Source: Spirochaetales bacterium (lineage in GTDB: Bacteria > Spirochaetota > Spirochaetia > SZUA-6 > RPPD01). Taken from it: DNA of 64,000 bases. This document shows positions 11,483-50,171 of the stretch, piece after piece (positions within the stretch are counted from its first letter, which is position 1; every line of letters begins with the position of its first letter). Made by a program: the position numbers and the translations under genes. The stretch spans positions 1 through 64,000 of the forward strand of contig JAFGSW010000010.1 of assembly GCA_016934415.1 (NCBI GenBank), given 5' to 3'. Under the pieces are notes generated by a model. The model was not told where the DNA came from. It worked only from the letters and a program-made list of their open reading frames with translations, and did not search any database.

Positions 11483-12634
<1,152 letters not shown>

Positions 12635-12672
12635 ACCACCACATTGTATCGCTATTCCGGGAATAATCAACA

Positions 12673-28593: not shown

Positions 28594-31548
28594 GTGACGT
28601 TAAAATTGAAAATTGCACTATTCCAAATTTTATTACTCTCCTGCTTTGCGCTCCACAATCTCTCGGCCCAGGAACAGAGAGTACTGTTGCTGTATAAGGA
28701 GCGTGACACCTACCATAAGGAATCGATCGACTACGTGGGAAAAGCCGCGCGTCAGGCGGGCTACCAGTGGGACAGTCGGGACGTGGAGAAGCTGCTGACC
28801 GGCAGGGAGAAGGTCGATTTCTCGCGCTATCGGGGAATCATCACCTGCTACCTGAGCACCAAAATGATCGGGGCCGAACACTATACGCGATTTCTTATCG
28901 ACCAGATGGAAGCGGGGCGCAAAATCATCATTATTGGAAGCTATGGGGCCTATCAGGGCATGATTCCCCGAGCCGACGGGACCTTCCTCGAATGGAACGA
29001 AAGCACGATCGCCATCAACACCTTTTTCCGGCCCTTCGGCCTGGAGTTCCTCTTCGGCTGGACGAACGCGAACAAAAAATTGCGCATCACCCGCATCGAT
29101 CCGGCCATGGCGGAATACCAGATTCGTCTCTCGCAGAGGGACCTCCACTATTACCAGTATTTCAAAAGCGTCAATCCGGCCAATAAAGTCTATCTCGAGC
29201 TGGAACGAACCGATATCCTTGATTCAAAAAGCGCCGCCATCGTCCACACTCCGTTCGGAGGAATGGTGCTGGAGGACTACATCAGGGTCTGGGACAAGCG
29301 GCGCGGGCAAATGAAACAACGGGTCAACCTCGTCCGCTTCATCAAGGAAGGGCTCCAGGGGAAATCGCCGCCGGTGCCCACGTATAACCTGAAAACCCAC
29401 CGTCAGCTGATCGAAGAAAATCCGATTCCCCCTCTGCCCCCGGCGCGGAAAATCGACATCACGCGGGACGAGGTGAAACGCCGCCTCCTGGTGCTCTATA
29501 AAAAAAGTGAAGCGCCGTCATTGGAAGAGCATCCGCTTTTCGACCGCGCTGGCATCGCGCTCAATTACCTCGGCCTTATATGCGATTACCGCGCGGTGGA
29601 GGACGGGCTCCCCGCGAATCGCGAGATGGAAAAATACCGGGGCATCGTTACCTGGCATACGACTCCGTTCATGGTTCACGCGCGCCGATACAACGACTGG
29701 ATGCTGCATCAGATCAAAGCCGGCGTGAAGGCCGTCATTATTGAAAATTACGGGGCCTATTGCGATCAAGACACCCTGGTGGAGGCTCCGAACGCGGCGC
29801 CCGTGTTCGCCGCCCTGGGAATCAAGCACGAGAAACTCGCCCTCGCCAGGGCGGAATATCTCCCCTCCGTCATCACCCTCGACAAGCGCATGATCGGATT
29901 CGAGTACCAGCCGAACCTCGATTATCTCGAGTATACCCACAAATATCTCTCGACGGATCCGTCCAACCGCGTCTTTCTCGCCCTGGACGACCGTTACAGC
30001 GGACGGATCGACCTGGTCGTAACGAACAACCGCGGCGGCGTGGCCATGGACAACAGCCCCTTTTATTTTCCCTACAAGGACATGGATCGGATCGAACGCA
30101 TACACAAATCATTGGCCGGAAAATTGCAGTACGAGATAGCCGAGGGCTCGACCATCGGGAAATGGATTGTAAACCCCTATCTCTTTTTTACGGAAGCGCT
30201 GGACCTTCATTTTCCCGTTCCCGATTACACGACGTTGTGCGGATCGCGGATGTTCTACATTCATATTGACGGCGACGCTTTGGAATCCATTTCGCTCATC
30301 GACGGGACCAACTACGCGGGCACGTACGTCCTGGAAAAACATTTCCGGCCGTACAGCGATCTTCCCTTTTCCGCCTCCACCATCAGCCTGCTTCTGGAAA
30401 ACAACGGGAACAAGTACTACAATCCCTTCCTGGAATTGGCGAGGGAAATATACGACTTGCCGAACGTCGAGATCGCCTCCCATACGACGACCCATCCCTT
30501 CAACTGGGTGCGGGGTGATCCCTATATCGTCAACCCCGACTCATACCCGTGGCGGATCGATTACAAGCCCCAGGACTACGTGTACGAGCTGTGGGGCACG
30601 AGACTATTCATCGATACGTACGCGGCCCCGCCGGGGAAAAAATTGAAAATCGTGCTCTGGTCGGGCGAATGCAATCCCAATGCGGCGGCGCTGGATGCGG
30701 CCGCCCGGGCCGGGCTGAAAAACCTGAACGGGGGCGATCCGATTTTCGACAGCGAACATCCCTCGATCGCGGGTCTCTGCCCCCTCTCCATTCCGCAGGG
30801 GAATTTCAGGCAGTACTTCACGTCCGCCCAGAACGATTACATCTATTCGCTCTTTTTAACCGGAGACTGGGGCGGACAAAAGAAAGTCCTCGATCACTAT
30901 CGAAAAACCGAAACCCCCTACCGCATCGTTCCCATGAACCTGTATTACCACTACTACGCGGGCATCAAGTGGGAGAGCATCAACGCCTGCATCACCGTCT
31001 TTAAGTACTTCCGCTCGGGAAACTTTGCGGGCGTGTTCGGCAGCGACTACGTGAAGATCGTCGAAGATTTTTACGCGACCCGCGTCAGGAAAGACGGGGA
31101 CGCCTATCTGTTCGAGAACGACGGGGATGTACGCACCGTCCGTTTCGCCGCGGAGACGTATCCCGACCTGGAAAAATCGAGGGGCGTCATCGGATTCCTG
31201 TGGAAGGACGGCCAGACGTACTTCCATTTGGACGGCGCCAAAAACTACAAGCTCGTTTTTTCCGACACGAAACCGGACCTGCCTTTCCTGCGGCAATCGA
31301 CCATGAAGGCCGGAGAGCTCAAGCGAAGCGGGGACGGAATATCGCTCGCCTGCGAGGGGTTCGGGAAGGGCTATTTCAACTTCGGGGGATTGAGGCCGAA
31401 GAGAGCCTACAGCCTGTCGATCGTCGATCAGAACGAGGCGCCGGTGTTCAAGCGGACCCTGTCCGCCGACGCCGACGGAACCGCGAGCTTCACGACAATG
31501 TTTCCCGCCCCTCCCCGCCGGTACCGACTTCGTCTGGCGGTGAAATGA
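28594..31548 (+). CDS. pelA: PelA-like polysaccharide deacetylase
   Basis: A 984-residue secreted protein. The signal peptide ends at about residue 25. Two homologous alpha/beta domains follow (about 28-265 and 300-520). Both open with an LLxLYK strand and share RYRGI(I/V)T and the pattern I-x-x-Y-GAY. The deacetylase domain starts near 540 with FYIHIDGDAL; its Asp pair at about 558/560 and ASHTTTHPF, giving His 628/632, match the PelA metal site. A beta-rich tail closes the protein. The N-terminal hydrolase domain of Pseudomonas PelA is missing. Expected role: partial N-deacetylation of the exported polymer. The start is GTG with no clear ribosome site. Confidence 0.75.
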   Translation: MTLKLKIALFQILLLSCFALHNLSAQEQRVLLLYKERDTYHKESIDYVGKAARQAGYQWDSRDVEKLLTGREKVDFSRYRGIITCYLSTKMIGAEHYTRFLIDQMEAGRKIIIIGSYGAYQGMIPRADGTFLEWNESTIAINTFFRPFGLEFLFGWTNANKKLRITRIDPAMAEYQIRLSQRDLHYYQYFKSVNPANKVYLELERTDILDSKSAAIVHTPFGGMVLEDYIRVWDKRRGQMKQRVNLVRFIKEGLQGKSPPVPTYNLKTHRQLIEENPIPPLPPARKIDITRDEVKRRLLVLYKKSEAPSLEEHPLFDRAGIALNYLGLICDYRAVEDGLPANREMEKYRGIVTWHTTPFMVHARRYNDWMLHQIKAGVKAVIIENYGAYCDQDTLVEAPNAAPVFAALGIKHEKLALARAEYLPSVITLDKRMIGFEYQPNLDYLEYTHKYLSTDPSNRVFLALDDRYSGRIDLVVTNNRGGVAMDNSPFYFPYKDMDRIERIHKSLAGKLQYEIAEGSTIGKWIVNPYLFFTEALDLHFPVPDYTTLCGSRMFYIHIDGDALESISLIDGTNYAGTYVLEKHFRPYSDLPFSASTISLLLENNGNKYYNPFLELAREIYDLPNVEIASHTTTHPFNWVRGDPYIVNPDSYPWRIDYKPQDYVYELWGTRLFIDTYAAPPGKKLKIVLWSGECNPNAAALDAAARAGLKNLNGGDPIFDSEHPSIAGLCPLSIPQGNFRQYFTSAQNDYIYSLFLTGDWGGQKKVLDHYRKTETPYRIVPMNLYYHYYAGIKWESINACITVFKYFRSGNFAGVFGSDYVKIVEDFYATRVRKDGDAYLFENDGDVRTVRFAAETYPDLEKSRGVIGFLWKDGQTYFHLDGAKNYKLVFSDTKPDLPFLRQSTMKAGELKRSGDGISLACEGFGKGYFNFGGLRPKRAYSLSIVDQNEAPVFKRTLSADADGTASFTTMFPAPPRRYRLRLAVK

Positions 31549-31559
31549 AGGAGAATCGC

Positions 31560-33362
31560 GTGCGGTTTGAGAAAAAGTTTCGGTTGTGTTTATTCGCATT
31601 TCTCATGACCGTTGTCGCGTCCCCCTCCCTGTCGGCCGACGAAAAGCAAAAAGACGTCATCGACAAGGAAATAAAGCAAGCCCTCTTGCTCTTCGACATG
31701 GACAGGGGCGAAGCGGCGATTTACAGGCTCCAACAGCTGCAGGAGCGATATCCGAACGACGCTTCCATTTTACAGCGATTGTGCGAAATGGCGATCGCCG
31801 GCAAGAACTGGGCCTATGCGATCGTGGTGCTGGAAAAGCTCGCCGCCGTGAAGCCGAAGGATGTCGGCGTCCGCGTCATCCTGATGGACGTGTACAAGGC
31901 CTACCAGATGCCCATTCAGGAAATCAAGACCGCCAAGGACATCATCGACATCGATCCCGGCGACGTCGACACGTTGGAGCGGTTGGCCAAGCTCTATCAC
32001 GGGGAAAACATGTTCCTGGAAGAAGAGCGGGTGAGGCTCATGCTCGACGGCCTCAAACCTTTCGACCTCGACAATCTTGAAAAGCTGGCCGTCTTCTACG
32101 CGGAGGAGGGCAACGTTCGCGAGGAGACCGTCATCCGGGAACGGATTCATTCCCTCGCTCCCCACGATATCGCCAACAGCACGCGGCTCATCTACCTGTA
32201 CAATGAAGCCAAGGACATGTATCAAAAATTGCTTCTCTTGCGGGAAGTCCTCGCGGAGGTGAAAGACCCGTCGGGTGAGCTTGCGGCGGAATACAACGCG
32301 ACCTACTCGGCGTATAAAAAATCCCTCCTCATCTTCGATGTCATCGGTTCAACGACCAGCGCCCAGTACAAGGATATAGGCGACGATCGTATCATCACCA
32401 TGGTGGAGAATTTCGGTTATTCGTACACGTCTCTCGAGAGCGTCTCCACCGTCAAGCTCAATATCATCTACACCCATTTGTTCGATATCCCCAGAGATCC
32501 GGAGCAGGACCAACCCTATCACGTGGGGAACATCACGCTGCAAACGAGCTATAACACCGCCACCCCGGACCAGAAGGTCAATTTTTCCGCGGTGGTCGGC
32601 TTTGAAAACATACTGATCTACGACGCCGGCAGCAGCACCCCCTATCCGTATTTTTCGGAAGACAAACTGACGGCCGTCTGGAACGATACGTATAAAATTT
32701 TCCCCACCGCCGGCCTGGACTTTGACGCAGAAATCGCGCGTTATTTTTATCTTCACGCCTCCTGCCACAGCGTTCTGTTCGAAGAGATCGAATCCTATCG
32801 CAGTCCCCTGAGGGACAATGACGCCGGGGCCGGGCTCCGCCTTCTCCTGCCCGACGGCACATCGATCATGGGCAATTACGAGCTGCACTGGGTCTGGAAC
32901 AGGCTTCTCCGCTCCCGGGTGACGGCCGAGCTCGCGTTCGTCATTTTTTCCTCGGACGCGGTATACGACTACCGCGGCGGCCGCGTCGGCTACGTCAAAG
33001 AAATACCGGGCACGCAGCTTGAATTCAGCTACGAATTCGAATTCATGACCGCCACGAACGACATTCCTTTTTATACCGAGGGGGAATTCACTCACACGCA
33101 CCTCGTCGACCTTATCTTCAAGCAACGACTGAGCGAAACGGTGGCCTTCAACATTGCGGCCGAGGCGAAATACTCAAGCACCAATGAATATACGGTGGGG
33201 GGAAGATTCTCTCTCTTCGATCTTCATTCCGAAAGTAACGTCAAATTTTCGCTTGACCTCTTTTACGAATATCAAAACGTTTTGCCCATACCGGATGCGT
33301 CCGCAGACAATCCCGTCCATGAGGCCGGGCTCAGTTTTTTCATCAGTTTCAATCTCACCTAG
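31560..33362 (+). CDS. PelB-like TPR plus outer-membrane barrel protein
   Basis: A protein of about 600 residues. A signal peptide ends SLSA-D. TPR-like helix pairs span about 25-230, for example EAAIYRLQQLQERYPND and YAIVVLEKLAAVKPKD. A beta-strand-rich C-terminal half ends in FFISFNLT. This is the PelB layout (TPR scaffold plus export porin) at half the usual length of about 1,190 residues. I prefer the GTG at 31560, which has AAGGAG six bases upstream. The ATG at 31545 overlapping the PelA stop is the alternative. Likely function: bring the deacetylase to the pore and export the polymer. Confidence 0.7.
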   Translation: MRFEKKFRLCLFAFLMTVVASPSLSADEKQKDVIDKEIKQALLLFDMDRGEAAIYRLQQLQERYPNDASILQRLCEMAIAGKNWAYAIVVLEKLAAVKPKDVGVRVILMDVYKAYQMPIQEIKTAKDIIDIDPGDVDTLERLAKLYHGENMFLEEERVRLMLDGLKPFDLDNLEKLAVFYAEEGNVREETVIRERIHSLAPHDIANSTRLIYLYNEAKDMYQKLLLLREVLAEVKDPSGELAAEYNATYSAYKKSLLIFDVIGSTTSAQYKDIGDDRIITMVENFGYSYTSLESVSTVKLNIIYTHLFDIPRDPEQDQPYHVGNITLQTSYNTATPDQKVNFSAVVGFENILIYDAGSSTPYPYFSEDKLTAVWNDTYKIFPTAGLDFDAEIARYFYLHASCHSVLFEEIESYRSPLRDNDAGAGLRLLLPDGTSIMGNYELHWVWNRLLRSRVTAELAFVIFSSDAVYDYRGGRVGYVKEIPGTQLEFSYEFEFMTATNDIPFYTEGEFTHTHLVDLIFKQRLSETVAFNIAAEAKYSSTNEYTVGGRFSLFDLHSESNVKFSLDLFYEYQNVLPIPDASADNPVHEAGLSFFISFNLT

Positions 33363-35446: not shown

Positions 35447-36439
35447 GTGAGGAAAACGGGCGCAACGCTTTTTTTTCTTATTGTTCTATTTTTCGTTTCC
35501 ACCGTCCGCCCCCAATCAGACCGGCTGGACTCGTCGGTTGAGCTCGCCATCCCCTTGACGGGCAGTCTCCAAAATCCCTCGTTTTCACCGGATAATCGTT
35601 CGATCGTGTTCACCCGGTTTCTCCGCGGATATAACGAGGGTCCGTCGGAAATCTACACCTACGATCTTCTTTCAAAAAAGCTTCGCAGAATCGTCTCAAA
35701 CGACAGCGACAATGTCGTCATGCCCGGCCACGCCTGGCGAAACGGCACAATCTGCTTCGCCTCCGACTACCATGGACCGACGGAAGACATTTTTACCGTC
35801 ACGGAGGACGGTGCGAACGTTGTGCAGGTGACGGAGAATCGGGAACAGGGCTCATACTATATCGAACCGGTCTTTCATCCCGCCCGGTCCGATATTATGG
35901 CTTTTGAAATCGGTTTTCTCGACGGCGGGAAACCGCATACGCTCGCCGTCGTCGAACGGGACCGCGGCGACCGGGTCACCCGCCTCCTCAACGACCCCGA
36001 ACACGATTACCGGCAGCCGAATTGGTCCTGGGACGGAACGCGCATCGTCTTCCAACGCGCCGACCGCGGCGGGGACAACTGGCGCATCTACACGGCCGCG
36101 GTTGATTTTTCGGGGAACAGGCCGTCGCTCAAGAAGATTCGCCGGCTCCCGCAACCCGAGGCGGGCAATACCGACAATGCCTGGTATTCGAACGACCTCT
36201 CCATCCTGTCGTCGAGCGATGACGGCGGGGCATACTCAAGCATTTACGCGTTCGGCGTGAACGGCCGGGCGCCGCTCCGCATTTCCCATTCGCTCCAATT
36301 CGAGGACGGGGCCCCGGCGTGCTCCTCGGACGGACGGCAGGTTGTCTTTGAAGCTCACACCGCCCGCGATCCGTCCAGTCCCACGAGGATTCGCCTGATT
36401 CGCCTGTCCCGGGAGGAATTGAGGTTCTTGTCCCAATAG
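35447..36439 (+). CDS. TolB-like beta-propeller protein (paralogue 1)
   Basis: A 330-residue secreted protein with an N-terminal hydrophobic leader. Repeats of the WD40-like/TolB type are clear: NPSFSPDNRSIVFTRF, QPNWSWDGTRIVFQR and APACSSDGRQVVFEA. It is the last gene of the plus-strand Pel arm. It resembles the lipoprotein at 42109-43086 over its whole length, so the two are paralogues lying on either side of pelDEFG. Binding of a peptidoglycan-linked or outer-membrane partner is the known role of TolB; the function here is not known. The start is GTG 35447 after AGGGAG. Confidence 0.75.
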   Translation: MRKTGATLFFLIVLFFVSTVRPQSDRLDSSVELAIPLTGSLQNPSFSPDNRSIVFTRFLRGYNEGPSEIYTYDLLSKKLRRIVSNDSDNVVMPGHAWRNGTICFASDYHGPTEDIFTVTEDGANVVQVTENREQGSYYIEPVFHPARSDIMAFEIGFLDGGKPHTLAVVERDRGDRVTRLLNDPEHDYRQPNWSWDGTRIVFQRADRGGDNWRIYTAAVDFSGNRPSLKKIRRLPQPEAGNTDNAWYSNDLSILSSSDDGGAYSSIYAFGVNGRAPLRISHSLQFEDGAPACSSDGRQVVFEAHTARDPSSPTRIRLIRLSREELRFLSQ

Positions 36440-36600: not shown

Positions 36601-38073
36601 CTACGGATTGATCAACGGTTTTTCGTCCTTGACGTAATATCTGCCGAAAGACCCCGTCTTGTGTAAATAGATCCGCCGCTCCATCCTGGTGGCGTAGGGC
36701 AATTCCCGCTTGGTAAAAGTATAGAAAATGGCGTTGCGCAGATAAAACCTCAACAAACGGGTGGCGTAGATGAAACACACGACGGAAGCGATGGTCATTC
36801 CGAGGCCATTGAACTGCTCCCCCGCTTGAAGGAAAACGAGCGTCAGCACGAGGTTGATGACGAAAAAAAAGCCGTAGACCTTGATCGATTCCTTCCGTAA
36901 ATCGAAATACAACAGCAGCACGCAGACGATGAGCATCATCATTTGAAAGAACCTTCCGATGATCACGACGGCCAGGAGCGTATCGACGCTCTCCGACATG
37001 TTGAACAGCTTCAAAATATTCCGCGAAAGGAGAATGGCGCCGAGGGTGACGATCGTCTGCACGAGAATGAGCATCCGGAGGGACGAGTCGACGCACTTAA
37101 TCAACTTGACGCCGGCGATTTTAATCTTCTCGAGGTTTCCCCAATAGCCTTTCCTCATCATGCGGCTGAAAAAACCGTAGTACGCTTTGTAGAAATCCGT
37201 CTCGATGACGATGAAAAAGATGGCGATAATCGGCGTCGAGAGGAGAAAGGCCAGGTAAAAAACGTCATCGTAATGGGGGTTGTAAAACAATATCGAATTG
37301 AACTGGATGCCGGACGGTCCGTACCACATGATGACCTTGTCCACCCACATGCCGGCGTAGAGCAGGAATCCGCTCGCCAGCAGATCGGAATAATACAGTT
37401 TCGACGTGATATCCTTCACGTTCAGCTTGGCCGGAAACCCGAACACCCTGATCGTCTTGATGAACAGGATGGCGGCGATGTACACCTGACCCAAAATAAA
37501 GCCCACGTAGAGGCCCAGGAAACTGAAAAAATAACCGAGGACGTATCCCAAGAGGAGGCTCGAACCGGCCCCGATCAGGTAATGCTTGATGAATTTCAGA
37601 AAACTGTCGCTGGCGCTGACGTAATTAATGAGCACCCAGGCGACGGTGATCGCGATGAAAAAGGTATACGTCAGGACTTTGACGTCGAACGGAATGTCGA
37701 TGACGATAAGCAAGGGAATCGACACAATGGAGACGGCGAAGAGCGCGGCGATGAGATTGCACATGATGACGTTGGGCAAGGCCTCCCGCTGCTTTTCAAA
37801 CATCTTGTCCGCGAAAATGCGCGTGAAGAAAAGCTGCAGCGTGCCGGTCACCATGATGGTGAGGAAATAAACGTTGACTAAAAGTATTTTAAACAACTGG
37901 CGCGAGGGAAGATTGATGATGAACGTCGAATAGACGGACAGCGTTCCCAGAGAGGTGACGATAATGAGCCAGGGGCCGGAGGTGAGGATGATCGCGTAAA
38001 TGAATCCCCGGATGACGGACGTGTACGATTCATTCGAGACGATTCGCTGCAGTTTGAACGCGATGCCGGCCAT
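36601..38073 (-). CDS. pelG: Pel polysaccharide transporter PelG
   Basis: A 490-residue inner-membrane protein with about twelve helices (Pseudomonas PelG is about 456). The N-terminus MAGIAFKLQRIVSNESYTSV followed by SGPWLIIV is characteristic of PelG, a member of the MOP flippase superfamily. It moves the growing Pel chain across the inner membrane together with PelD, PelE and PelF. It is the last gene of the pelDEFG arm, two bases after pelF. A hairpin follows immediately. Confidence 0.92.
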   Translation of the reverse strand: MAGIAFKLQRIVSNESYTSVIRGFIYAIILTSGPWLIIVTSLGTLSVYSTFIINLPSRQLFKILLVNVYFLTIMVTGTLQLFFTRIFADKMFEKQREALPNVIMCNLIAALFAVSIVSIPLLIVIDIPFDVKVLTYTFFIAITVAWVLINYVSASDSFLKFIKHYLIGAGSSLLLGYVLGYFFSFLGLYVGFILGQVYIAAILFIKTIRVFGFPAKLNVKDITSKLYYSDLLASGFLLYAGMWVDKVIMWYGPSGIQFNSILFYNPHYDDVFYLAFLLSTPIIAIFFIVIETDFYKAYYGFFSRMMRKGYWGNLEKIKIAGVKLIKCVDSSLRMLILVQTIVTLGAILLSRNILKLFNMSESVDTLLAVVIIGRFFQMMMLIVCVLLLYFDLRKESIKVYGFFFVINLVLTLVFLQAGEQFNGLGMTIASVVCFIYATRLLRFYLRNAIFYTFTKRELPYATRMERRIYLHKTGSFGRYYVKDEKPLINP

Positions 38074-38075
38074 AT

Positions 38076-39566
38076 TCAGCTCTTGACGTACTTGAGATAC
38101 ACGGATTTATAGAGTTGGATGATCCTCTCCTGTTTATAGTATTTATCGATCCGCTCGATCCCTATTCTCTTCATGTTTTCCCTCAAGGTATCATCTTTCA
38201 GTATTCTGATACAAGACTCGGCGAATCGGTCGACATCGCCGATGGGAACGACGAATCCGCATTTCCCCAAGGCCTTGTCCTCCTCCGTCCGTCCGTAGAG
38301 CAGTTCGCTGCACGCCCCGACGTCGGTGGTCACGCAGGCCACTCCCACGCACATCGCCTCCAGAATGGTCAGGGGCTGCCCTTCGCTGATGCTGGTGAGC
38401 GCCATGATATCGAGCGTGGTGTACGTTTTATCCTTCACCAGGTTTTTCGGGCCGGTAAAAATGCACTTTTCCTCCAATCCCAGAATTTCCACCAGCTCGA
38501 GGCATTCCTGAACGTAATCCGCGTCCTCCTCGAACGGGCCGATGACGTGGAACAGGCAATTCGGCACCCAGTTGGTCACGATCTTGCAGACCTTGATGAA
38601 CATCTTGATGTCCTTGATCGGGACGACCCGTCCCACCAGGCCGACGATGAAGGTGGAGGGATCCGGCTTCGGAGTCCCCCGCTGCGTTCCGTACTGCTCG
38701 ACCCGCACGCCGTTGGGAATGATGGTGATGCGGTCGAAATTCGCGCCGAATTCGACCGCCAGTTTCTTGTTGCCCTCGAAGAGGGTGATGATATCATCGC
38801 ACAGATCGTAGGTCGCCTGCCCCAGCCGCCTGAAGTGATCCATCCATAAATCCTTCAGCATCCCCTGCGACTTCTGGATGTACACCCGGCTGCGTTCGTC
38901 TTTTTGAATCCAGGTCGCCTGGTTGATTTCAATCCTCCGCTCGTTCGTGTAGATCCCGTGCTCGGAAAGGACGAGGGGACGATTATATTTGATTTTCGCG
39001 ATCACGCCGACCAATCCGGCGTAGCCGGTGCTCGTCGCGTGATACAGGCGCGCGGGGGGAATTTCCATGTGCAGGGTCTGGATCAAAATGAGCAGCATCG
39101 ACCGCCAGGTCCAGAAAAAATCGAAAAATGAGCACATCCCCTTCTTTTGCTCGTACAGCTTTTCCGTGATTTTATGCGATTCTTCGGAGTAGAGCAGCTC
39201 GTAACTGCTCACCACCCGCTGTTTCGGATCGATCAGCATCGGCAGCAGTTCGGCGAAATGCGAGCCGTAGCTTTCATCCTTGCCGGATAAAAAATCGTAG
39301 AATTTCCGCCAAAAAACGTCCTTTTTGTGCTCCATGGGACACGGCTGCTTGGGAATAATCGCCGTGTAAAGAAAGACTTCCAGCAGGTTTTTCACATTGG
39401 GAGGCAGGACGTATTTGTATTTCTTCGGCTTTCCGATTTTCGGTGAGAGCGCCAGGATGGAAAAGTTGATGTCGGGCATGCTCTCCAGGAGATTCTGGAC
39501 CCAAACCGACACCCCCCCGCCGATGAAAGGATACGTACCTTCTAAAATAAAGCAGACATCATCCAT
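38076..39566 (-). CDS. pelF: Pel polysaccharide glycosyltransferase PelF
   Basis: A 496-residue cytoplasmic GT-B glycosyltransferase of family GT4 that polymerises the Pel chain from UDP-sugars. The N-terminal VCFILEGTYPFIGGGVSVWV is the PelF signature. Further motifs are LSEHGIYTNERRIE near 205, IPNGVRVEQYG near 290, GLVGRVVPIKDIK near 315 and the EX7E element EGQPLTILE near 395. The length matches known PelF (about 507). It is in one operon with pelD, pelE and pelG. The donor is presumably UDP-GlcNAc or UDP-GalNAc, which the galE product could help to supply. Confidence 0.95.
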   Translation of the reverse strand: MDDVCFILEGTYPFIGGGVSVWVQNLLESMPDINFSILALSPKIGKPKKYKYVLPPNVKNLLEVFLYTAIIPKQPCPMEHKKDVFWRKFYDFLSGKDESYGSHFAELLPMLIDPKQRVVSSYELLYSEESHKITEKLYEQKKGMCSFFDFFWTWRSMLLILIQTLHMEIPPARLYHATSTGYAGLVGVIAKIKYNRPLVLSEHGIYTNERRIEINQATWIQKDERSRVYIQKSQGMLKDLWMDHFRRLGQATYDLCDDIITLFEGNKKLAVEFGANFDRITIIPNGVRVEQYGTQRGTPKPDPSTFIVGLVGRVVPIKDIKMFIKVCKIVTNWVPNCLFHVIGPFEEDADYVQECLELVEILGLEEKCIFTGPKNLVKDKTYTTLDIMALTSISEGQPLTILEAMCVGVACVTTDVGACSELLYGRTEEDKALGKCGFVVPIGDVDRFAESCIRILKDDTLRENMKRIGIERIDKYYKQERIIQLYKSVYLKYVKS

Positions 39567-39581
39567 GTAATCGCCTTTTTT

Positions 39582-40763
39582 TTACACTGCGGATAAAGCG
39601 CCGAGCGGTTCTTCGAGCGGATGAACGGTCAAATCCTTGATATCGTTCCTGATTTGGATCAAGGCGGGAATATCGCGCAAGGCGAAAAAGGCGCGCGTTT
39701 TGAACGACCGGGCGTGCTCGAAGTTTTCATCGCCCTCCTCGACTTCAAAACAATACCTGATGCACAAATCGTAATTCCTGTTGTAATACAGCGCGGGGAT
39801 GAGGCGGTAAATGATGTCGCGCTTGTGCTCCGGGAATTTCTTCAGGAGCTCTTCATATATCTTGATCGCCTTGGCCCTGTACGATTCCACGATGGCGGGA
39901 TGCTCGATATCCGCCTCGGCGAAGAGCGAATAAAGATCCGCCAACTCCTTCCGTTTTTGGTAATCGGGCGTTTTCATCCCCTTGAGTTCCTTCAGGATCG
40001 CCGTAATGCGCGAAAAATACATGTCGGCGATTTTCTTTATCGCTTCATTGGCGTAATACTGAACTTCCTTCGAGGTATCTTTCATGGCGGAGACGAGATT
40101 TTGCCTGGTCGTCTGCGAATCCACCTCCTCCATGGCGAGAATGGCCGCCACCCGGACGTTTTTTTCCTCGTCGGTCAGCCCGTCGATGAGGGGGCTGACG
40201 TTGGAAAGCTCCTCCAGGTTGATTTGAATGTCCTGCTTCTCCTCCTTCAGCTCCTCCTCACCCTCCTCCTGGTCGATATGATATAATTTCGACGGATCGG
40301 TCTCCGGGTTGACGATGGTTCGGTACAGGAAGAGAATGGTGATGATTCCCAAAATGCTGAAACACGCGAAAAAGAAGATCGTGAAAAACACCAGCATCTT
40401 TTTTTTATCCGGATCGATTTCCTTCAGCGCGTTTATTCTCAGGAAAAGGATGGGCGCGAACGCGATGCGTGAGAAAAAGATAACCGCCTGCCATACTTCG
40501 CCGTGAACGAACGTGACGATGCAAACCAGACCGGCCGCATCGACGGCCCCGCAGATCAGGAAAAAAACGTATAATGAAATCCCCTTCCGTAAGTCCGCCA
40601 GCACCGCGCGTACCGCACCCAGCGGACGCTTCGCGGACTCCGGAATCTCCTCGAGCTCGGAAAGCTCCTCGAGTTCCGGACTCTCGTCTGCCTCCAGAAG
40701 CCCCGCAGGCTCCGGAGGCAACGGAAACTCCGGACGCTCTATGATCTTTTTGTAAAGTCCCAT
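39582..40763 (-). CDS. pelE: PelE-like inner-membrane scaffold with HEAT/TPR repeats
   Basis: A 393-residue protein. A Glu-rich N-terminal stretch with near-repeats (ELEELSELEEIPE) precedes three to four membrane helices (about 50-150). After an acidic segment, a helical repeat domain follows: HEAT-like in DEEKNVRVAAILAMEEV and KEVQYYANEAIKKIAD, then TPR-like to the end. Pseudomonas PelE (about 329 residues) also combines membrane helices with TPRs and recruits PelF. Position between pelD and pelF supports the name. The acidic N-terminus and HEAT repeats are differences from the classical protein. Confidence 0.75.
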   Translation of the reverse strand: MGLYKKIIERPEFPLPPEPAGLLEADESPELEELSELEEIPESAKRPLGAVRAVLADLRKGISLYVFFLICGAVDAAGLVCIVTFVHGEVWQAVIFFSRIAFAPILFLRINALKEIDPDKKKMLVFFTIFFFACFSILGIITILFLYRTIVNPETDPSKLYHIDQEEGEEELKEEKQDIQINLEELSNVSPLIDGLTDEEKNVRVAAILAMEEVDSQTTRQNLVSAMKDTSKEVQYYANEAIKKIADMYFSRITAILKELKGMKTPDYQKRKELADLYSLFAEADIEHPAIVESYRAKAIKIYEELLKKFPEHKRDIIYRLIPALYYNRNYDLCIRYCFEVEEGDENFEHARSFKTRAFFALRDIPALIQIRNDIKDLTVHPLEEPLGALSAV

Positions 40764-40789
40764 ATCATCGATCCCACTTTCGATTAAAG

Positions 40790-41809
40790 TCAGATTTTCA
40801 ATTCTTCCTTACCCACGACCCATCGATACGTCGAATTCGCCTTTCCGTATTTGTAGTAGAGAATCTCGCTCACCCAGCGGCATAGATTCCTGATGGTGCG
40901 AAGCTTGTTTTCATTGAAAAGCATAAAATCGATTTCCCTGATGATGACCAGGCCGAAAAAACTCCGGGAGGCTTGATGGAAAATCGGCCCGATAAAGTAC
41001 GGGACCGCATGATCGTGATTCTCCTTCGACACCATTTTAAAATAATGGAATTTGAAGGTCTTCACCGATTGGGCGATCAGTTCCTTGTTGTTGATTAAAA
41101 GCATGATTCCCTCGCCGCGCGCTTCCTCGGGAAAATTGCAGCGCAGGGATTTGTCATTAATTGAGTACACGTAAAAGACGGCTCCCCGAATGATGATCTT
41201 GAGAATATTGTAGAGCGAGCCGAATATCTGCTCGATATCGTCCGTAAAAAGATTCTTCGTCTTGTCGAAGACGATATTGAAACTGTGCTCGGCGTTGATC
41301 AGCTGGTGTGAAAGATCCTCGTTGATCTTGAGAATCTGCTTTATCTCCTTGTCCTTTTTGCTTATCTTCTCATTTTGCTCAGCGATCAACGCCTCCGAGG
41401 TCTTGATCTTTTTTTTATCGATGCTCACGAGCAATCCCAGGGTGAGGCCGAAGAGAATGAAGGCCAGGGGCTGATAGCACTCCCGCCACAAAGCGGAGAC
41501 GTGGAAACCGCTTTGAAATATTTTCTCGAAAAAGATCCGAGGCCGCGTCAGGTCGTCGACGGAGATTCCAGCGATGCGCGCCAGGTACAGACAAAAGTAG
41601 ACGACGCCGGCGGAAATGATCGCGGGGAGGCTTCTCCGCAGCCCGTAGCGAAGCACGATCACCAATATGTAAAAGTAAAAGGGATGGATCTCAAGACCGA
41701 TGAAGCCGGCGTTTCCGATGATAAAGCTGAAAACGAGAAGAGCGATTAAAAAGACGACCGTTTCCGCCAAGAATAGATTTTTTTTGGCCCATATCTTTGG
41801 CAACCTCAA
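40790..41809 (-). CDS. pelD: PelD-like membrane protein lacking the GGDEF domain
   Basis: A 339-residue protein. Four membrane helices (about 12-130) are followed by a coiled coil (about 132-175) and a GAF domain (about 180-325), exactly the first part of PelD. Known PelD (about 455) continues with a degenerate GGDEF domain whose RxxD site binds c-di-GMP and switches on Pel synthesis. Here the protein stops at GKEELKI, so no such receptor exists. TTG at 41809 is supported as the start by AGGAGA about seven bases upstream. First gene of the pelDEFG arm. Confidence 0.85.
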   Translation of the reverse strand: MRLPKIWAKKNLFLAETVVFLIALLVFSFIIGNAGFIGLEIHPFYFYILVIVLRYGLRRSLPAIISAGVVYFCLYLARIAGISVDDLTRPRIFFEKIFQSGFHVSALWRECYQPLAFILFGLTLGLLVSIDKKKIKTSEALIAEQNEKISKKDKEIKQILKINEDLSHQLINAEHSFNIVFDKTKNLFTDDIEQIFGSLYNILKIIIRGAVFYVYSINDKSLRCNFPEEARGEGIMLLINNKELIAQSVKTFKFHYFKMVSKENHDHAVPYFIGPIFHQASRSFFGLVIIREIDFMLFNENKLRTIRNLCRWVSEILYYKYGKANSTYRWVVGKEELKI

Positions 41810-44595: not shown

Positions 44596-46653
44596 CTAAT
44601 ATCCGTAGATATCTATTCCGGAAAAATCCCCCGGCTTCTTCAGATTATCATCGAAGACGATTTCCTTTTTCACCGCCGGACCGGTCAACCTCACATATGC
44701 GGCGGGATGGACGGAATCAAAGGCAATGACCTGTTCGTCGTCCGCGCCGCCGGCGCTTCGGCACGTGTAAAGGGAAAACCAGTTCTTTCCGTCGATCGAG
44801 GTCTCGATGGCGAACGGCGCCCGTTCGACGGTATCGCGGCGGAGCCTCAACCTCATGCTGGCGACGAGGTTCGTCTTTTCCAGCTTGAAGGTCAGGGCCT
44901 CCAGGGGATTCCCGTCCTTGTCGGCCGCGTTCTTTTCCAGATACGTTTTTTTCAATTTCGTCAATTGCGCATCCGCCCGGACCGCATGGAAATGGTCGAA
45001 GTAGACATCGCTGTCGTAATCCTCCAGATCGTCGACCACCTGCATCGTTCCAATTTTCTTCGTGTTGTGGGTCGCCGGGAGCCATTTCTCCAGGTAGAAG
45101 TGGAGCGCGTTTCCCTTTTTCAGTATCGAGTCCTTTATTATTTTGAAATTTTCCAAAAATCTGCCGTACACGATGATCGTCTTGTCTTTGGTCAAATCGG
45201 AGGAAAGCCCGTCCGTGACCCGCACGTGAAATGCGTACAGCGCGTCCGGGTAATCGAATTTTTTCACTTCCGGAATTACCGAAACCCGGGCCACTTCTCC
45301 GGCGACCCATTCAAGCTTTCTGTCCTGCGTTACGGTAAAGCCGTTCCGCAGCGCGACGGGCTGCGGGTCGATGCGCCGCGCCGGTTCGGAGGCGGTTCTC
45401 TCAGGCTCCGGCATCGTGACGACGTGCCAAGCGTCCTGATCGGTGACGCCTTGGAACGTCGAACCGTATATCTCCCAGATGACGACCTTCGGTTCCTTTC
45501 CCCTTCCCGCGACGTACTGCCTGTACCAGTTCGGCGGTTCGGCGGCCCCCGCGTCTTTGCTGATGGCGGCGGGGATGATCCGCGTGTAGTAGGCCAGATG
45601 GGCGTAGATCCCGGATGAGGTGTCCGCCGCGTGGGGGATGAAGCTGTCCCCCATGAGGAGCACGGGCGAGTCTTCGAACGACCTGGCCGGCTCGATCTTT
45701 CGATTCTTATAGGTGATGCTCACTCTCCGGTATGTCGGACTATACGGCATGCGGGACGCTATATAGGAAATGCTCAATTTGTCCCAATGCGGAATCAGAG
45801 CGGGCGTCTTGACGGTGATGGGGACCCTCTCGATCGAAGCGGGATCCAGGTAATACTTCTCTTCGAACCGGAATCTTTGGAGCCGCTGCCCGAGCTCCCA
45901 GCCGACGATATCGAGACCGGCCTGCCCCCAGTGGTGGTCGATGTAATTGATCGTCGTATTGTCCCCGGAATAGGTCTTGTAGAGGTCGAGAAGATCGATC
46001 ACCTCGACGTCGTATTGCAGGAGCTTGGCGATCATGTGCGCCCAGGGATGCCAGATGACGTCCTCCACGTGGATATCCTTGTGCAGTTTATGCGCGTGTA
46101 ATTGCGCGGCATTGGGCACGGGCACGACGATGAGAGAGACGCCTCTTTTTTTGAGCTGCCGGTCGAACTGAATGATGGCCGTCATCGCGTCGCTCCCCGC
46201 AGCCCCGAGCAGCGGCGTTATTTCCTTATAGGCATAGTTGGCCGGATCGGCCGGCGTAAAGTCCTGCCGGGGCACGCGCGTGACGTCGCGCAACCTGAAA
46301 ATATGGCCGGTCGGGTTGGTTCCGTCCACTCTTTTCGTCGCGCCGATCACTTGCTTCACCAGCCGGGAATCGGCCATATGCTCGAGGCGCTTCTCGGCGA
46401 TTTTCCGGTCCCGCTCGATGTACAATCGCCTCTGCTCGGCCGGATCCTTCGCGTCCTTCAATAAAAGATCGTAGGTTGCCTGGATTTTATTGAAATACTG
46501 ATAGTATTCCGAATCATGATTGACGCGCCAGTAGGCGTCCCCTTCCCGTTCCAGGGAATAGGTTTCAGGCGGAGCGAGGCTGAGAGGAGTCGTCTGGCAG
46601 CCCGCACAAAGCGCCATTAAAACGAATAAAACAAGAAATACGGTCTTTTTCAC
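44596..46653 (-). CDS. AlgJ/AlgX-like SGNH acetylation protein with C-terminal sandwich domain
   Basis: A lipoprotein of about 685 residues (lipobox CAGC). The SGNH-type domain holds VPVPNAAQLHAHK, the catalytic dyad in YIDHHWGQAG (about 240) and the nucleophile Ser in VLLMGDSFIPH (about 335), as in alginate O-acetylation proteins AlgJ/AlgX. The C-terminal 170 residues look like a discoidin-type sandwich (AIETSIDGKNWFSLY, AAYVRLTGP) and may bind carbohydrate. I prefer GTG 46653, which has AAAGGA at good spacing; an in-frame ATG at 46668 lacks a site. It is divergent from the MBOAT gene. Confidence 0.75.
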   Translation of the reverse strand: MKKTVFLVLFVLMALCAGCQTTPLSLAPPETYSLEREGDAYWRVNHDSEYYQYFNKIQATYDLLLKDAKDPAEQRRLYIERDRKIAEKRLEHMADSRLVKQVIGATKRVDGTNPTGHIFRLRDVTRVPRQDFTPADPANYAYKEITPLLGAAGSDAMTAIIQFDRQLKKRGVSLIVVPVPNAAQLHAHKLHKDIHVEDVIWHPWAHMIAKLLQYDVEVIDLLDLYKTYSGDNTTINYIDHHWGQAGLDIVGWELGQRLQRFRFEEKYYLDPASIERVPITVKTPALIPHWDKLSISYIASRMPYSPTYRRVSITYKNRKIEPARSFEDSPVLLMGDSFIPHAADTSSGIYAHLAYYTRIIPAAISKDAGAAEPPNWYRQYVAGRGKEPKVVIWEIYGSTFQGVTDQDAWHVVTMPEPERTASEPARRIDPQPVALRNGFTVTQDRKLEWVAGEVARVSVIPEVKKFDYPDALYAFHVRVTDGLSSDLTKDKTIIVYGRFLENFKIIKDSILKKGNALHFYLEKWLPATHNTKKIGTMQVVDDLEDYDSDVYFDHFHAVRADAQLTKLKKTYLEKNAADKDGNPLEALTFKLEKTNLVASMRLRLRRDTVERAPFAIETSIDGKNWFSLYTCRSAGGADDEQVIAFDSVHPAAYVRLTGPAVKKEIVFDDNLKKPGDFSGIDIYGY

Positions 46654-46997
46654 GGCAAATCCTTTCATGAGAGGTTTTCAACATTGGGATTGCTTAAGAA
46701 GTTCAAAAATACCAATAAAAAACCATGACTCAACGGTTTCACCAGATGGATTAAAACCCGAAAACTTGGTTCTTCGGCCTTTTTATTAATGTATAATGTA
46801 CGCGTCATATTTCTGTCAAGTTAATCTCCATGGATGATTCATTCGAAGACGAGGGAATGCCCGCGCCGGCCGCGCGAAACTACCCCTTGAAAAAATTCCC
46901 GTGATATATATTATTCTTAAGAGGGCGGCATCGACGAGCGGCGGCATTGCTCCGTTTTTCAATATTACGCCCGATATTTCGCAGGGCGTACATATTC

Positions 46998-48434
46998 ATG
47001 GTATTCAGCTCGCATGTATTCATTTTTTATTTCCTGCCCCTGGTACTCATCGTCTACTACATTCTGCCCAAGAAACTGAAGCACCTGGCTCTGACTCTCT
47101 TGAGCTACGTCTTTTACGGCTGGGCGAATCCGATTTTCATCGTCCTGATGTTCGTCTCGACCGTCATCGATTACACCTGCGGCTGGATCATTCACAGCCA
47201 GTTTCCAAAAGCGAAGGATCGGATCACCGGCCGGACGACGATCCAGAAATTGGCATTGGTCGCCTCGATCTGCACGAATTTGTCCCTGCTGGGATTCTTC
47301 AAATACTTCAATTTATTCGTCGACAGCGGCAATGCGGTCTTGTCCTTTTTGGGGTTGAGCGATCACGCGATCAGCCTCGCTTTCACCGTGGCGCTCCCCC
47401 TGGGCATCAGTTTTTACACCTTTCAGTCCATGAGTTACACGATCGACGTCTACCGGGGCAGGGTCGGCGTCATGAAAAACTTCATCGATTTCGCCTGCTA
47501 CGTGTCCCTGTTCCCCCAGCTGGTGGCCGGCCCCATCATCAGGTTCGCGGAAGTGGCGGATCAATTCAAGAACCGAACGCACACGTTCGAAAAATTCGCG
47601 CGGGGGTTCGCCTTCCTGGCCCTGGGCCTGGCCAAGAAGGTCCTGATCGCCAACGCCTGCGGCAAGGCGGCGGACCTGGTCTTCGGCACCTCGGGCGTCC
47701 CATTTTACACCGCCTGGTACGGCGTCGCCGCGTACGCCTTCCAGATATATTTCGATTTCAGCGGCTATTCCGACATGGCGATCGGCCTGGGATTGATGCT
47801 CGGGTTCGTGTTCCCGAAAAACTTCGATTCGCCGTACCACGCCCAATCGTTCACGGAATTCTGGAGACGATGGCATCTCTCCCTGTCGACCTGGCTGCGG
47901 GATTACCTGTACATCCCCCTGGGCGGGAACAGAAAGGGGGACCTGCGCACGTTCGGCAATCTCCTGGTGGTCATGCTCCTGGGCGGCCTCTGGCACGGCG
48001 CGTCCTGGAACTTCGTCATTTGGGGGGGGATCCACGGCCTGCTTTTGGCGATCGAGCGGCTGAACGGGGGCAAGCCCCTGTACCACAGGCTGCCCGCCCC
48101 CTTGCGGACGGCGGTCACCTTCGTCATCACCCTGTTTACCTGGGTGTTTTTCAGGGCGGAAACCCTGCCCCGGGCGATCGAATACATCGGCAGCATGTTC
48201 GGATTGACGCCGGTTTTGGAGACGTCATTTTTGCAGCATCCGATTTTATACAATCCATATTACGTCGTCACGCTCATCGTCGCGGTCGTCATCACCTGGT
48301 TCGGCAAGCAAACCTGGGACTGGACGAAAAAAATATCCTGGAAAAAGGCGGCCGTCGCCGCCGGTCTTTTCGGCGTTTCGGTGGTCATGCTCACGACCCA
48401 GGCGTACAATCCGTTCATTTACTTCATATTTTAG
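46998..48434 (+). CDS. algI: AlgI-type MBOAT O-acyltransferase
   Basis: A 478-residue inner-membrane protein with about eleven helices. It moves acetyl groups across the membrane for polysaccharide O-acetylation. MBOAT hallmarks are FQIYFDFSGYSDMAIGLG, EFWRRWHLSLSTWLRDY followed by IPLGGNRKG, and the catalytic His in GGLWHGASWNF (about 332). I start at ATG 46998, which begins the first helix (MVFSSHVFIFYFLPL); upstream codons are not membrane-like. The two following genes are AlgJ/AlgX-like, completing an acetylation module. Confidence 0.93.
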   Translation: MVFSSHVFIFYFLPLVLIVYYILPKKLKHLALTLLSYVFYGWANPIFIVLMFVSTVIDYTCGWIIHSQFPKAKDRITGRTTIQKLALVASICTNLSLLGFFKYFNLFVDSGNAVLSFLGLSDHAISLAFTVALPLGISFYTFQSMSYTIDVYRGRVGVMKNFIDFACYVSLFPQLVAGPIIRFAEVADQFKNRTHTFEKFARGFAFLALGLAKKVLIANACGKAADLVFGTSGVPFYTAWYGVAAYAFQIYFDFSGYSDMAIGLGLMLGFVFPKNFDSPYHAQSFTEFWRRWHLSLSTWLRDYLYIPLGGNRKGDLRTFGNLLVVMLLGGLWHGASWNFVIWGGIHGLLLAIERLNGGKPLYHRLPAPLRTAVTFVITLFTWVFFRAETLPRAIEYIGSMFGLTPVLETSFLQHPILYNPYYVVTLIVAVVITWFGKQTWDWTKKISWKKAAVAAGLFGVSVVMLTTQAYNPFIYFIF

Positions 48435-48461
48435 GAGGCCGACACAAGCGGGACGGGAATC

Positions 48462-50171
48462 ATGAAGGAAAAGCTGTCAAGGGAAGAACAGGCGAAACTC
48501 GAAATCGGTAAAACCGACATCTCGAAGGCCGCATCGCGCGCGTTGGTCGTCGTCTTCCTCCTCGCGATCGCCTCCGTGCCGATCGTGCAGGGGATTCACG
48601 AGCTCGCCGGCTACCTCGCCGGAAAAGAAAAATCGCTTTTACCCTCGTTTTTCACCATGTATTCCGATGTCGGCGAAAGCGTAAAGAAGCTCGCGGACGG
48701 CCGGAAGGATTTCGCGTCAGGCGTGTTCGACGCGAACGAACATCTTCTCCAGGGCATCATCAGGTACGAGGACGATCTGGAGAACGATTCGGTGTTTCGA
48801 AACGCCGTCATTCCCCCCTCCCAGGCCCTCTTCGCCAAGGCGTTTCACCTCGGCAACGAAAACGTCGTCATCGGAAGGGACGGCTGGCTTTTTTACGAAC
48901 CGGGCATACGGTACCTCACCTCGGCGGTCGGCGAAAACGCCGTCGCGGCAGACAGGAGCTCGGCCAAGGCCAATACGGTCTTCGTGGAAAAGAAGGCGGG
49001 CCCCCTGCAGGCGATCGTCGATTTCAACCGGCAGCTCCGGGAGAGAAACATCAGGCTTATTCTTATGCCCGTTCCCATCAAGCCCATGTTTTATCCGGAA
49101 AAAATATCCGTTCAATTCAACGGCGCGAACGGATACCTGCGCAATCCCTATTTCGACGAACTGAAAAAGGAACTGGAAGAACAGGGCATCCCGATCGTGG
49201 ATACGGCGCCCCTGCTCGAGCGACTGAAAAAAACATCCGGCCGTGAAATTTTCCTCAAAATGGATTCCCACTGGACACCGGAAACCGTCGCCGCCGCGGC
49301 CGAGAGCCTGGCGGCGTTCATTGAAAAGAATATCGATCTTTCCATATACAATTCCCGGCCGTTGAAAACGAGGACCATCGACGTCGTCAATGTCGGGGAC
49401 ATCGCCCGAATGCTTTTGAAAAGCGATACGGCGGGCCCGGAATACACGGAGCGGGCGTCGATCACGCAAATCGTATCGAACAACAACGAACCCTGGTCTT
49501 CAGACCGAAACGCGGAGATTCTCTTCCTGGGAGACAGCTTCGCCAACATCTATTCCCTCGGCGCCATGGGCTGGGGGGAATCGGCCGGTCTCGTCGAGCA
49601 GCTTTCGTTTTTTCTGAATCGCCCCATAGACAGAATAGTGCGGAACGACAACGGCGCCTTCGCCACCAGGCAGGCCCTGCAGTACGAGCTCTCCCGCGGC
49701 AGGGACCGGCTGGCCGGCAAGAAGGTCGTCGTCTGGGAGTTCGCCGTCCGCGAATTGGCGACGGGCGACTGGAAAACGCTCCCCCTGAAACTGAACGAAA
49801 GCCGGGAGAGCTCCTTCTTCACGCCCGAAGCGGGCAAGGAGGCCGTGGTGACGGGCGTCGTCGGCGACGTTTCCTCGCGGCCGATTCCCGGCACCACTCC
49901 GTACAAAGACCACATCATGACGTTTCACCTGGTGGATGTTATAATTAATGGGGAGACGGAGAAAACGTACGACGCGCTGGTGTACGCGTTCAGCATGACG
50001 GACAACGTTCCCGCCCCCGCCTCCCAGTACCGGGTGGGGCAGAACATCACCGTGCGCCTGAAAAGATGGTACGACGTGAACGACAAGTACGACAGCATCA
50101 ACCGGTCGGAAATCGACGACGGGGAACTGCTGTTCGAGGACCCGTGCTGGGCCGAGGAGATCATCCAATGA
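48462..50171 (+). CDS. AlgJ-like membrane-anchored SGNH acetyltransferase
   Basis: A 569-residue protein with one N-terminal membrane helix (about 26-46) and a periplasmic SGNH domain. Key motifs are GRDGWLFYEPG near 143, LMPVPIKPMFYPEK near 200, the D-x-H dyad in KMDSHWTPE (about 268) and the Ser nucleophile in LFLGDSFANIY (about 352). It probably takes acetyl groups from the MBOAT protein and passes them to the polymer. It lies 27 bases downstream of the MBOAT gene and its stop overlaps the next start. Confidence 0.85.
   Translation: MKEKLSREEQAKLEIGKTDISKAASRALVVVFLLAIASVPIVQGIHELAGYLAGKEKSLLPSFFTMYSDVGESVKKLADGRKDFASGVFDANEHLLQGIIRYEDDLENDSVFRNAVIPPSQALFAKAFHLGNENVVIGRDGWLFYEPGIRYLTSAVGENAVAADRSSAKANTVFVEKKAGPLQAIVDFNRQLRERNIRLILMPVPIKPMFYPEKISVQFNGANGYLRNPYFDELKKELEEQGIPIVDTAPLLERLKKTSGREIFLKMDSHWTPETVAAAAESLAAFIEKNIDLSIYNSRPLKTRTIDVVNVGDIARMLLKSDTAGPEYTERASITQIVSNNNEPWSSDRNAEILFLGDSFANIYSLGAMGWGESAGLVEQLSFFLNRPIDRIVRNDNGAFATRQALQYELSRGRDRLAGKKVVVWEFAVRELATGDWKTLPLKLNESRESSFFTPEAGKEAVVTGVVGDVSSRPIPGTTPYKDHIMTFHLVDVIINGETEKTYDALVYAFSMTDNVPAPASQYRVGQNITVRLKRWYDVNDKYDSINRSEIDDGELLFEDPCWAEEIIQ

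Follow-up and report, generated by a model that had tools for sequence, protein, structure and literature searches.

A spirochaete PelD without the c-di-GMP receptor domain, and a PKG-like kinase in the pel operons of sister loci

The window examined here, a 64,000-nucleotide stretch from one contig of a Spirochaetales bacterium, contains a set of Pel polysaccharide genes in the order pelD, pelE, pelF and pelG, all on one strand, in which PelD is short and lacks the C-terminal degenerate GGDEF domain that receives cyclic diguanosine monophosphate (c-di-GMP). The window's genome is referred to as G000 and its contig as C3, with C40 denoting another contig of the same genome; other G, C and L labels stand for genomes, contigs and named or fetched loci, respectively. 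The pelD gene (40790..41809, reverse strand) starts with a TTG codon just downstream of a ribosome-binding-like GAGGAGA and encodes 339 residues comprising four hydrophobic segments, a coiled coil and a GAF domain. The pelE-like gene (39582..40763, reverse strand; 393 residues) begins 26 bases past the pelD TGA, pelF (38076..39566, reverse strand), encoding a GT4 glycosyltransferase, follows 15 bases past pelE, and pelG (36601..38073, reverse strand) lies 2 bases past pelF. Two of the parts expected of a PelDEFG synthase are clearly present: against NF038011, the PelF equivalog of NCBIfam, PelF scores 448 bits (cut-off 100), and it retains intact the catalytic motifs GRVVPIKD and SEGQPLTILE (E-x7-E), and the PelG transporter matches PF16933 at 287 bits (cut-off 29). 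No PelE model matched the second gene, which has the right position and HEAT repeats (residues 190–259); its product is 26% identical over 211 columns to the PelE of genome G013, with the HEAT region common to both.

The window PelD is very divergent (18–21% identity to its relatives in alignment A1) and had no Pfam and no NCBIfam match above cut-off. It is a genuine PelD by gene order, homology to other PelDs and its structure model, and aligns with the PelD of G013 at 27% identity (E 2.5e-13). An AlphaFold2 model built from an alignment of 47 sequences (mean predicted local distance difference test score, 86; predicted template modelling score, 0.59) places N-terminal helices before one long coiled coil (helix at residues 104–188), followed by the GAF domain (residues 175–325; 40835..41287, reverse strand) and a disordered tail (residues 325–339). 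The three top rows of a VIA-align search with this model were P. aeruginosa PelD structures (4etz, 4dmz and 4dn0; Z 13.3–13.5), superposed over 131–135 residues of the GAF part only at a root-mean-square deviation of 3.0–3.2 Å, with the GAF domain aligned to P. aeruginosa PelD residues 156–313. The GAF domain of KdpD (Z 13.1) ties with these rows and other GAF domains fall within 1 Z, while plain Foldseek placed the GAF region of an HD-GYP protein first and PelD 4etx fourth (E 4.5e-3). Searched by sequence against the PDB, neither the window PelD by itself nor one long PelD recovered a PelD structure, whereas a profile of ten long PelDs did. Four segments with a 19-residue hydropathy of at least 1.6, judged by hydropathy only, lie before the coiled coil or at its start and fit membrane helices, such that the N-terminal membrane segments, coiled coil and GAF domain of a P. 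aeruginosa-type PelD are all found.

What is absent is the part that would carry the c-di-GMP site. R367, D370 and R402 of P. aeruginosa PelD are reported to be needed for c-di-GMP binding and for pellicle formation (PMC2170427), and the domain that would hold these residues is missing from the window protein. The original prediction had claimed that the protein stops right after the GAF domain without its c-di-GMP receptor domain, and this is borne out: in the model the GAF domain ends near residue 325 and the chain stops at residue 339, after a 15-residue tail. The prediction also allowed for an artefact near the 3' terminus, either a shifted frame or an early stop codon. Because the gene closes with two in-frame stops (TGA CTT TAA; 40784..40792, reverse strand) and pelE starts 26 bases downstream, a hidden lost domain is excluded at the level of the assembly, and read-through of the first stop would meet a frame that shuts again two codons later. 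The sole late RxxD of the protein (residues 291–294), considered as a candidate for the c-di-GMP-binding RxxD (I-site), was rejected as it sits at the end of a GAF strand (residues 283–292 in the model). As a control, the long PelD of G008 (L127), modelled in the same way, has a GGDEF fold at residues 317–472 (Z about 20). The Pfam family PF16963 (PelD_GGDEF) had no match in G000, but had none in 14 control genomes either and is uninformative.

The same short form, looked for in relatives, is present at four other loci of the order (344–369 residues): contig C40 of the window's own genome, G001, contig C25 of G002 and contig C209 of G013. The GAF-aligned part is kept at all five loci. Across the class, a profile (A1) of the five short and four long PelDs, whose own scores are set by construction, matched at E 1e-8 in 63 of 394 genomes, with at most four candidates scored per genome. 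Other frames below 380 residues in this survey (G034 C50 and C51, G144, G301 C382, G007 C3 and G122 C199) were matches at contig ends or matches to the C-terminal third of the profile, and the frame of G007 C3, as well as a 386-residue frame of G017 C26, was rejected as a short PelD because an intact GGDEF motif marks it as an ordinary GGDEF protein.

Among the relatives, the window PelF is nearest to that of G013 C209 (47% identity), and a tree of concatenated PelF and PelG joins the two loci with support of 95/92. This tree was built with 23 named loci less L090 and L104, which failed a length filter, and left out the degenerate sets of C40, C19 and C25 and the duplicates L084 and L127. In a tree of PelF only (21 named loci less L090, L104, L113, L119 and L128, removed by the filter) the window falls in an open fork. 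For PelD, a tree in which the five short rows were held together was 5.2 log units better than the free tree (p-value of the approximately unbiased test, 0.643), with the window row a long branch.

At the four other short-PelD loci the gene after pelG encodes a cyclic nucleotide-binding (CNB) domain, then a Ser/Thr kinase domain and then about 240 further residues, and as mechanically called this gene overlaps pelG by 8 (G013), 4 (G002 C25), 4 (G001) and 8 (C40) bases. The operons at these loci consist of pelD, pelE, pelF, pelG and the kinase gene only. The window locus has no kinase and is not counted as a member of this operon type; there, the gene after pelG (35447-36439, forward strand) is not a kinase. 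A survey of 26 genomes from the order recovered the full-length CNB-kinase in four, always at a short-PelD locus, with the score falling from 853 to 202 bits between these and lower matches that cover the kinase part. By comparison, of 14 long-PelD spirochaete loci looked at, 13 reach past pelG (L067–L079; the G008 locus ends just past it), and none had a kinase-profile match at E 1e-3 in the fetched DNA. The difference between four of five short and none of 13 long loci has a one-sided Fisher p of 0.0016, though the five short loci are related and the counts, not being independent events, serve as description and not as proof. The kinase profile matched at two of the 80 named loci, many of which end near pelG: L084 (the G013 locus) and L088 of the Elusimicrobia; the latter was rejected as the same protein because it has TPR repeats and no CNB match.

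The G013 kinase is the most intact, keeping VAIK, HRD and DFG and the cassette GESAL...PRTA, motifs taken here to be the kinase signatures and the cyclic-nucleotide cassette. Its best solved matches are cGMP-dependent protein kinases (PKGs), presumably those of Plasmodium, aligned over residues 3–371 (E 2.6e-62). The end of a gene for a 7TMR-DISM class III cyclase lies 2.3 kb away from it on the same contig, and a histidine kinase gene separates the two (L065:758-4861). This PKG-like kinase of the operon is the natural candidate for a switch at G013. At the other three kinase loci, complete pelDEFG sets in which PelF has most or all of its catalytic motifs missing are accompanied by a CNB-kinase or pseudokinase (L062:3028-9993 for C40, L063:6593-13497 for G001 and L064:3512-10352 for G002), and no second PelF match at E 1e-15 was found in G001, a genome that is 95% complete. 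PelF motifs are intact at C3 and G013. On C40, a STAS-domain gene is divergent from the short pelD (L062:10219-10593), and the stretch beside the pel set (L062:71-2486) encodes a trypsin-like protease, a further Ser/Thr kinase and a small frame with an FHA-like look by eye.

The window's genome is rich in c-di-GMP enzymes. G000 has 16 GGDEF matches, 12 of which show GG[DE]EF and one of which was not judged, six EAL matches and 15 PilZ matches (14 over cut-off). There are also 12 class III cyclase matches and 23 CNB matches, none of them on C3, and only three Ser/Thr kinase matches, again none on C3 and two of them on C40, a contig of 13 kb. On C100, two neighbouring frames (C100:11261-13079) each match both CNB and GGDEF and are possibly cyclic-nucleotide-gated diguanylate cyclases.

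Loss of the c-di-GMP site was also observed in PelDs of full length. The 80 named loci gave 63 PelD matches, and an alignment of PelDs of 330–515 residues (A5), with L158 left out, retained 46 of the 63. Setting aside the window, L084 and L127 from its 47 rows leaves 44 long PelDs whose named loci do not carry Spirochaetales in their titles, and 39 of these keep RxxD at the aligned place. Of the spirochaete PelDs read, those of 421–428 residues (L174–L178) keep it in five of five cases, and those of 467–544 residues (L046–L055, L057, L058 and L179–L190; L055 is a weak match) have lost it in 24 of 24. In 18 of the latter the sequence FHYK lies just past the RxxD place, a similar motif occurs in the other six, and a Gln follows three residues on. 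A profile of eight long RxxD-less PelDs aligned end-to-end with RxxD-bearing PelDs (E 3.6e-47), with changed residues opposite RxxD. By sequence, the I-site is eroded more widely in the class than the short PelDs alone would indicate, and the long RxxD-less proteins may sense another ligand. The PelD of G008 is likewise without RxxD; at this locus (L066:9970-14712) a gene for a stand-alone receiver domain overlaps pelD at its start, and pelE is separated from pelF by a HEAT-repeat-rich frame of 668 residues. An alphaproteobacterial PelD of 325 residues (metagenome-assembled genome REEB506; L158:8126-9103) seems, judged by eye, to end past its GAF domain and is perhaps a further independent loss of GGDEF. 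At the other extreme of length, the PelD frames of the Elusimicrobia loci L088, L091 and L099 span 700–925 residues with long N-terminal extensions.

Elsewhere in the window, a DUF2194 protein is encoded at 28594..31548 (forward strand). Homologues occur inside the fetched DNA of 37 of the 80 named pel loci; at five of these, all of them Nitrospirae (L121, L131, L133, L134 and L139), a single frame matches both PelG and DUF2194. Because it recurs at pel loci and shares a frame with PelG, the protein is probably a Pel component; a literature search for DUF2194 turned up two papers, each naming it once. A TPR protein whose start is not settled (31200..33362, forward strand) is weakly PelB-like, by its repeats and position only. 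Three AlgX-like proteins and an MBOAT acyltransferase adjoin the pel genes at 44596-51214 and are perhaps involved in the acetylation of an exported polysaccharide. A GAF-GGDEF protein with an intact motif (GGEEF; 11483..12670, reverse strand) lies about 29 kb from pelD and is the nearest GGDEF match on the contig, on which no PilZ match was found. No known riboswitch was recovered: across the 64-kb window and L062–L066 every Rfam family stayed below its gathering score, and the only weak match near pelD, to SpF25 (18.8 bits against 48), was dismissed as noise.

Taken as a whole, these observations modestly favour a reading in which PelD has lost its GGDEF domain and keeps a role as scaffold, with the switch having moved off PelD and, at the sister loci, perhaps to the operon kinase. 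On this reading the hydrophobic helices, coiled coil and GAF domain would likely hold PelE, PelG and PelF together at the membrane, a role proposed for the window PelD because c-di-GMP binding in P. aeruginosa is reported in a review to leave complex assembly unaffected (PMC8461298). From the loss of the receiving domain it follows that Pel synthesis at the window would not be switched on by c-di-GMP through the known PelD site, despite the c-di-GMP enzymes of the genome. At the sister loci the operon kinase, predicted to open with a cyclic mononucleotide (cAMP or cGMP), may take over the switch and would probably act on the PelDEFG complex. Because no kinase adjoins the window locus, control there would be transcriptional or exerted in trans, one conceivable source being the CNB-pseudokinase that accompanies the pel set of C40. 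Replacement of c-di-GMP control by the kinase is suggested by gene order at G013 and unproven at the window. The list of control options in the original prediction (constitutive, transcriptional or through a ligand of the GAF domain) was incomplete, as it omitted the operon kinase to which the relatives point.

A bolder form of this proposal, and a rather unlikely one, is an exchange of messengers: the receiving domain was deleted, the PKG-like kinase, its gene overlapping pelG and with a membrane cyclase gene nearby, became the switch as at G013, the sister copy in the window lost the kinase or is controlled in trans, and in the window's family a second, catalytically degenerate pelDEFG set is retained, together with a CNB-kinase or pseudokinase, as a complex with a regulatory or structural function.

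Several points weigh against the favoured reading. On the window's contig, profile searches for Ser/Thr kinases, CNB domains and class III cyclases all came back empty. The G002 kinase keeps the lysine, HKD and DFG and has a degraded cassette, and the kinases of G001 and C40 are without the VAIK lysine and the DFG aspartate. The catalytic motifs are gone from the PelFs of C40 and G001 and mostly gone from the PelF of G002 C25, which retains an Arg and one Glu. The kinases of these three loci, out of the four that have one, therefore probably have no active synthase to serve, and an intact-looking kinase is paired with an intact-looking PelF at G013 only. With PelF and kinase of G002 both intermediate, this single intact pair lowers the odds slightly. 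In a free PelD tree the short forms did not group, the window falling beside long PelDs with RxxD, and in the PelF and PelG tree the window row is a long branch, so its join with G013, the locus with the most intact kinase, is good and not final. Finally, c-di-GMP could still have an effect by way of a PilZ protein or at the level of transcription.

The alternative that survives best, a credible minority view, is that the window system is controlled at transcription only, or not at all post-translationally, with the loss of GGDEF having released the complex and the kinase of the sister loci being a separate matter. It is favoured by the lack of kinase, CNB and cyclase matches on the contig, to which the absence of an Rfam family at threshold may be added, and by Streptococcus thermophilus JIM8232, where biofilm is reported to need the pel locus although its PelD has transmembrane and GAF regions only (PMC7112168). 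It sits poorly with the G013 locus, joined to the window in the tree, which keeps an overlapping and intact-looking CNB-kinase gene.

It is unlikely that the GAF domain became a sensor for a small ligand, a cyclic nucleotide or another, as in phosphodiesterases. The GAF-aligned part is kept at all five short loci and the structural neighbours of the model include cyclic-nucleotide GAF domains, though a common fold shows no function, and the window PelD is very divergent from its A1 relatives. Control by c-di-GMP through a separate PilZ or GGDEF partner docking on PelD or PelE appears quite improbable: GGDEF and PilZ proteins are many in G000 and a GAF-GGDEF gene lies inside the window, but the contig has no PilZ match and no GGDEF match nearer than about 29 kb, and the other four short-locus operons hold nothing beyond the pel and kinase genes. 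That pelD is a decaying remnant of a cluster no longer functional is very doubtful, as the four frames are open and packed 2–26 bases apart with PelF motifs intact, even if the C40 set, which lost its PelF catalytic motifs, indicates that such decay occurs in the family.

Pel is usually presented as activated by c-di-GMP, and here a genome rich in c-di-GMP enzymes has Pel synthases without the known PelD site. The case raises the question of how scaffold and switch are divided within PelD, and a close relative, G013, offers a testable replacement, the PKG-like kinase of its own pel operon. No published description of a Pel-linked CNB-kinase or of PelD in spirochaetes was found, judging by titles and the openings of abstracts and with the subscription literature thinly covered; within that scope, neither PKG-like kinase genes in pel operons nor I-site loss among the PelDs of spirochaetes turned up in print.

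Compared with known systems, the window locus resembles that of P. aeruginosa (4DMZ, 4DN0 and 4ETZ) in the N-terminal helices, coiled coil and GAF fold of PelD and in the pelE, pelF and pelG that follow, whereas P. aeruginosa PelD runs on into a degenerate, c-di-GMP-binding GGDEF domain with R367, D370 and R402, as described in PMC2170427 and PMC8461298. The PKG-like kinase is absent from the window locus. At G013 it is like PKG in having a cyclic-nucleotide domain and then a kinase domain, aligned over residues 3–371, and unlike PKG in being bacterial, with a single CNB domain, a polysaccharide operon as its setting and about 240 extra C-terminal residues. The closest published parallel to the window protein is the class IV PelD of streptococci, in which transmembrane and GAF regions are kept and GGDEF is absent; in JIM8232 the biofilm depends on the pel locus with such a PelD (PMC7112168), and c-di-GMP enzymes are typically missing from streptococci (PMC7112168, PMC12345266). 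A PelD without GGDEF is therefore already published, and the window is a second lineage of that variant. It differs in that its PelD leaves no room for an SDR domain and in that its host is a spirochaete with 16 GGDEF and six EAL matches, such that the streptococcal question, how Pel is controlled without c-di-GMP, becomes testable in a second lineage.
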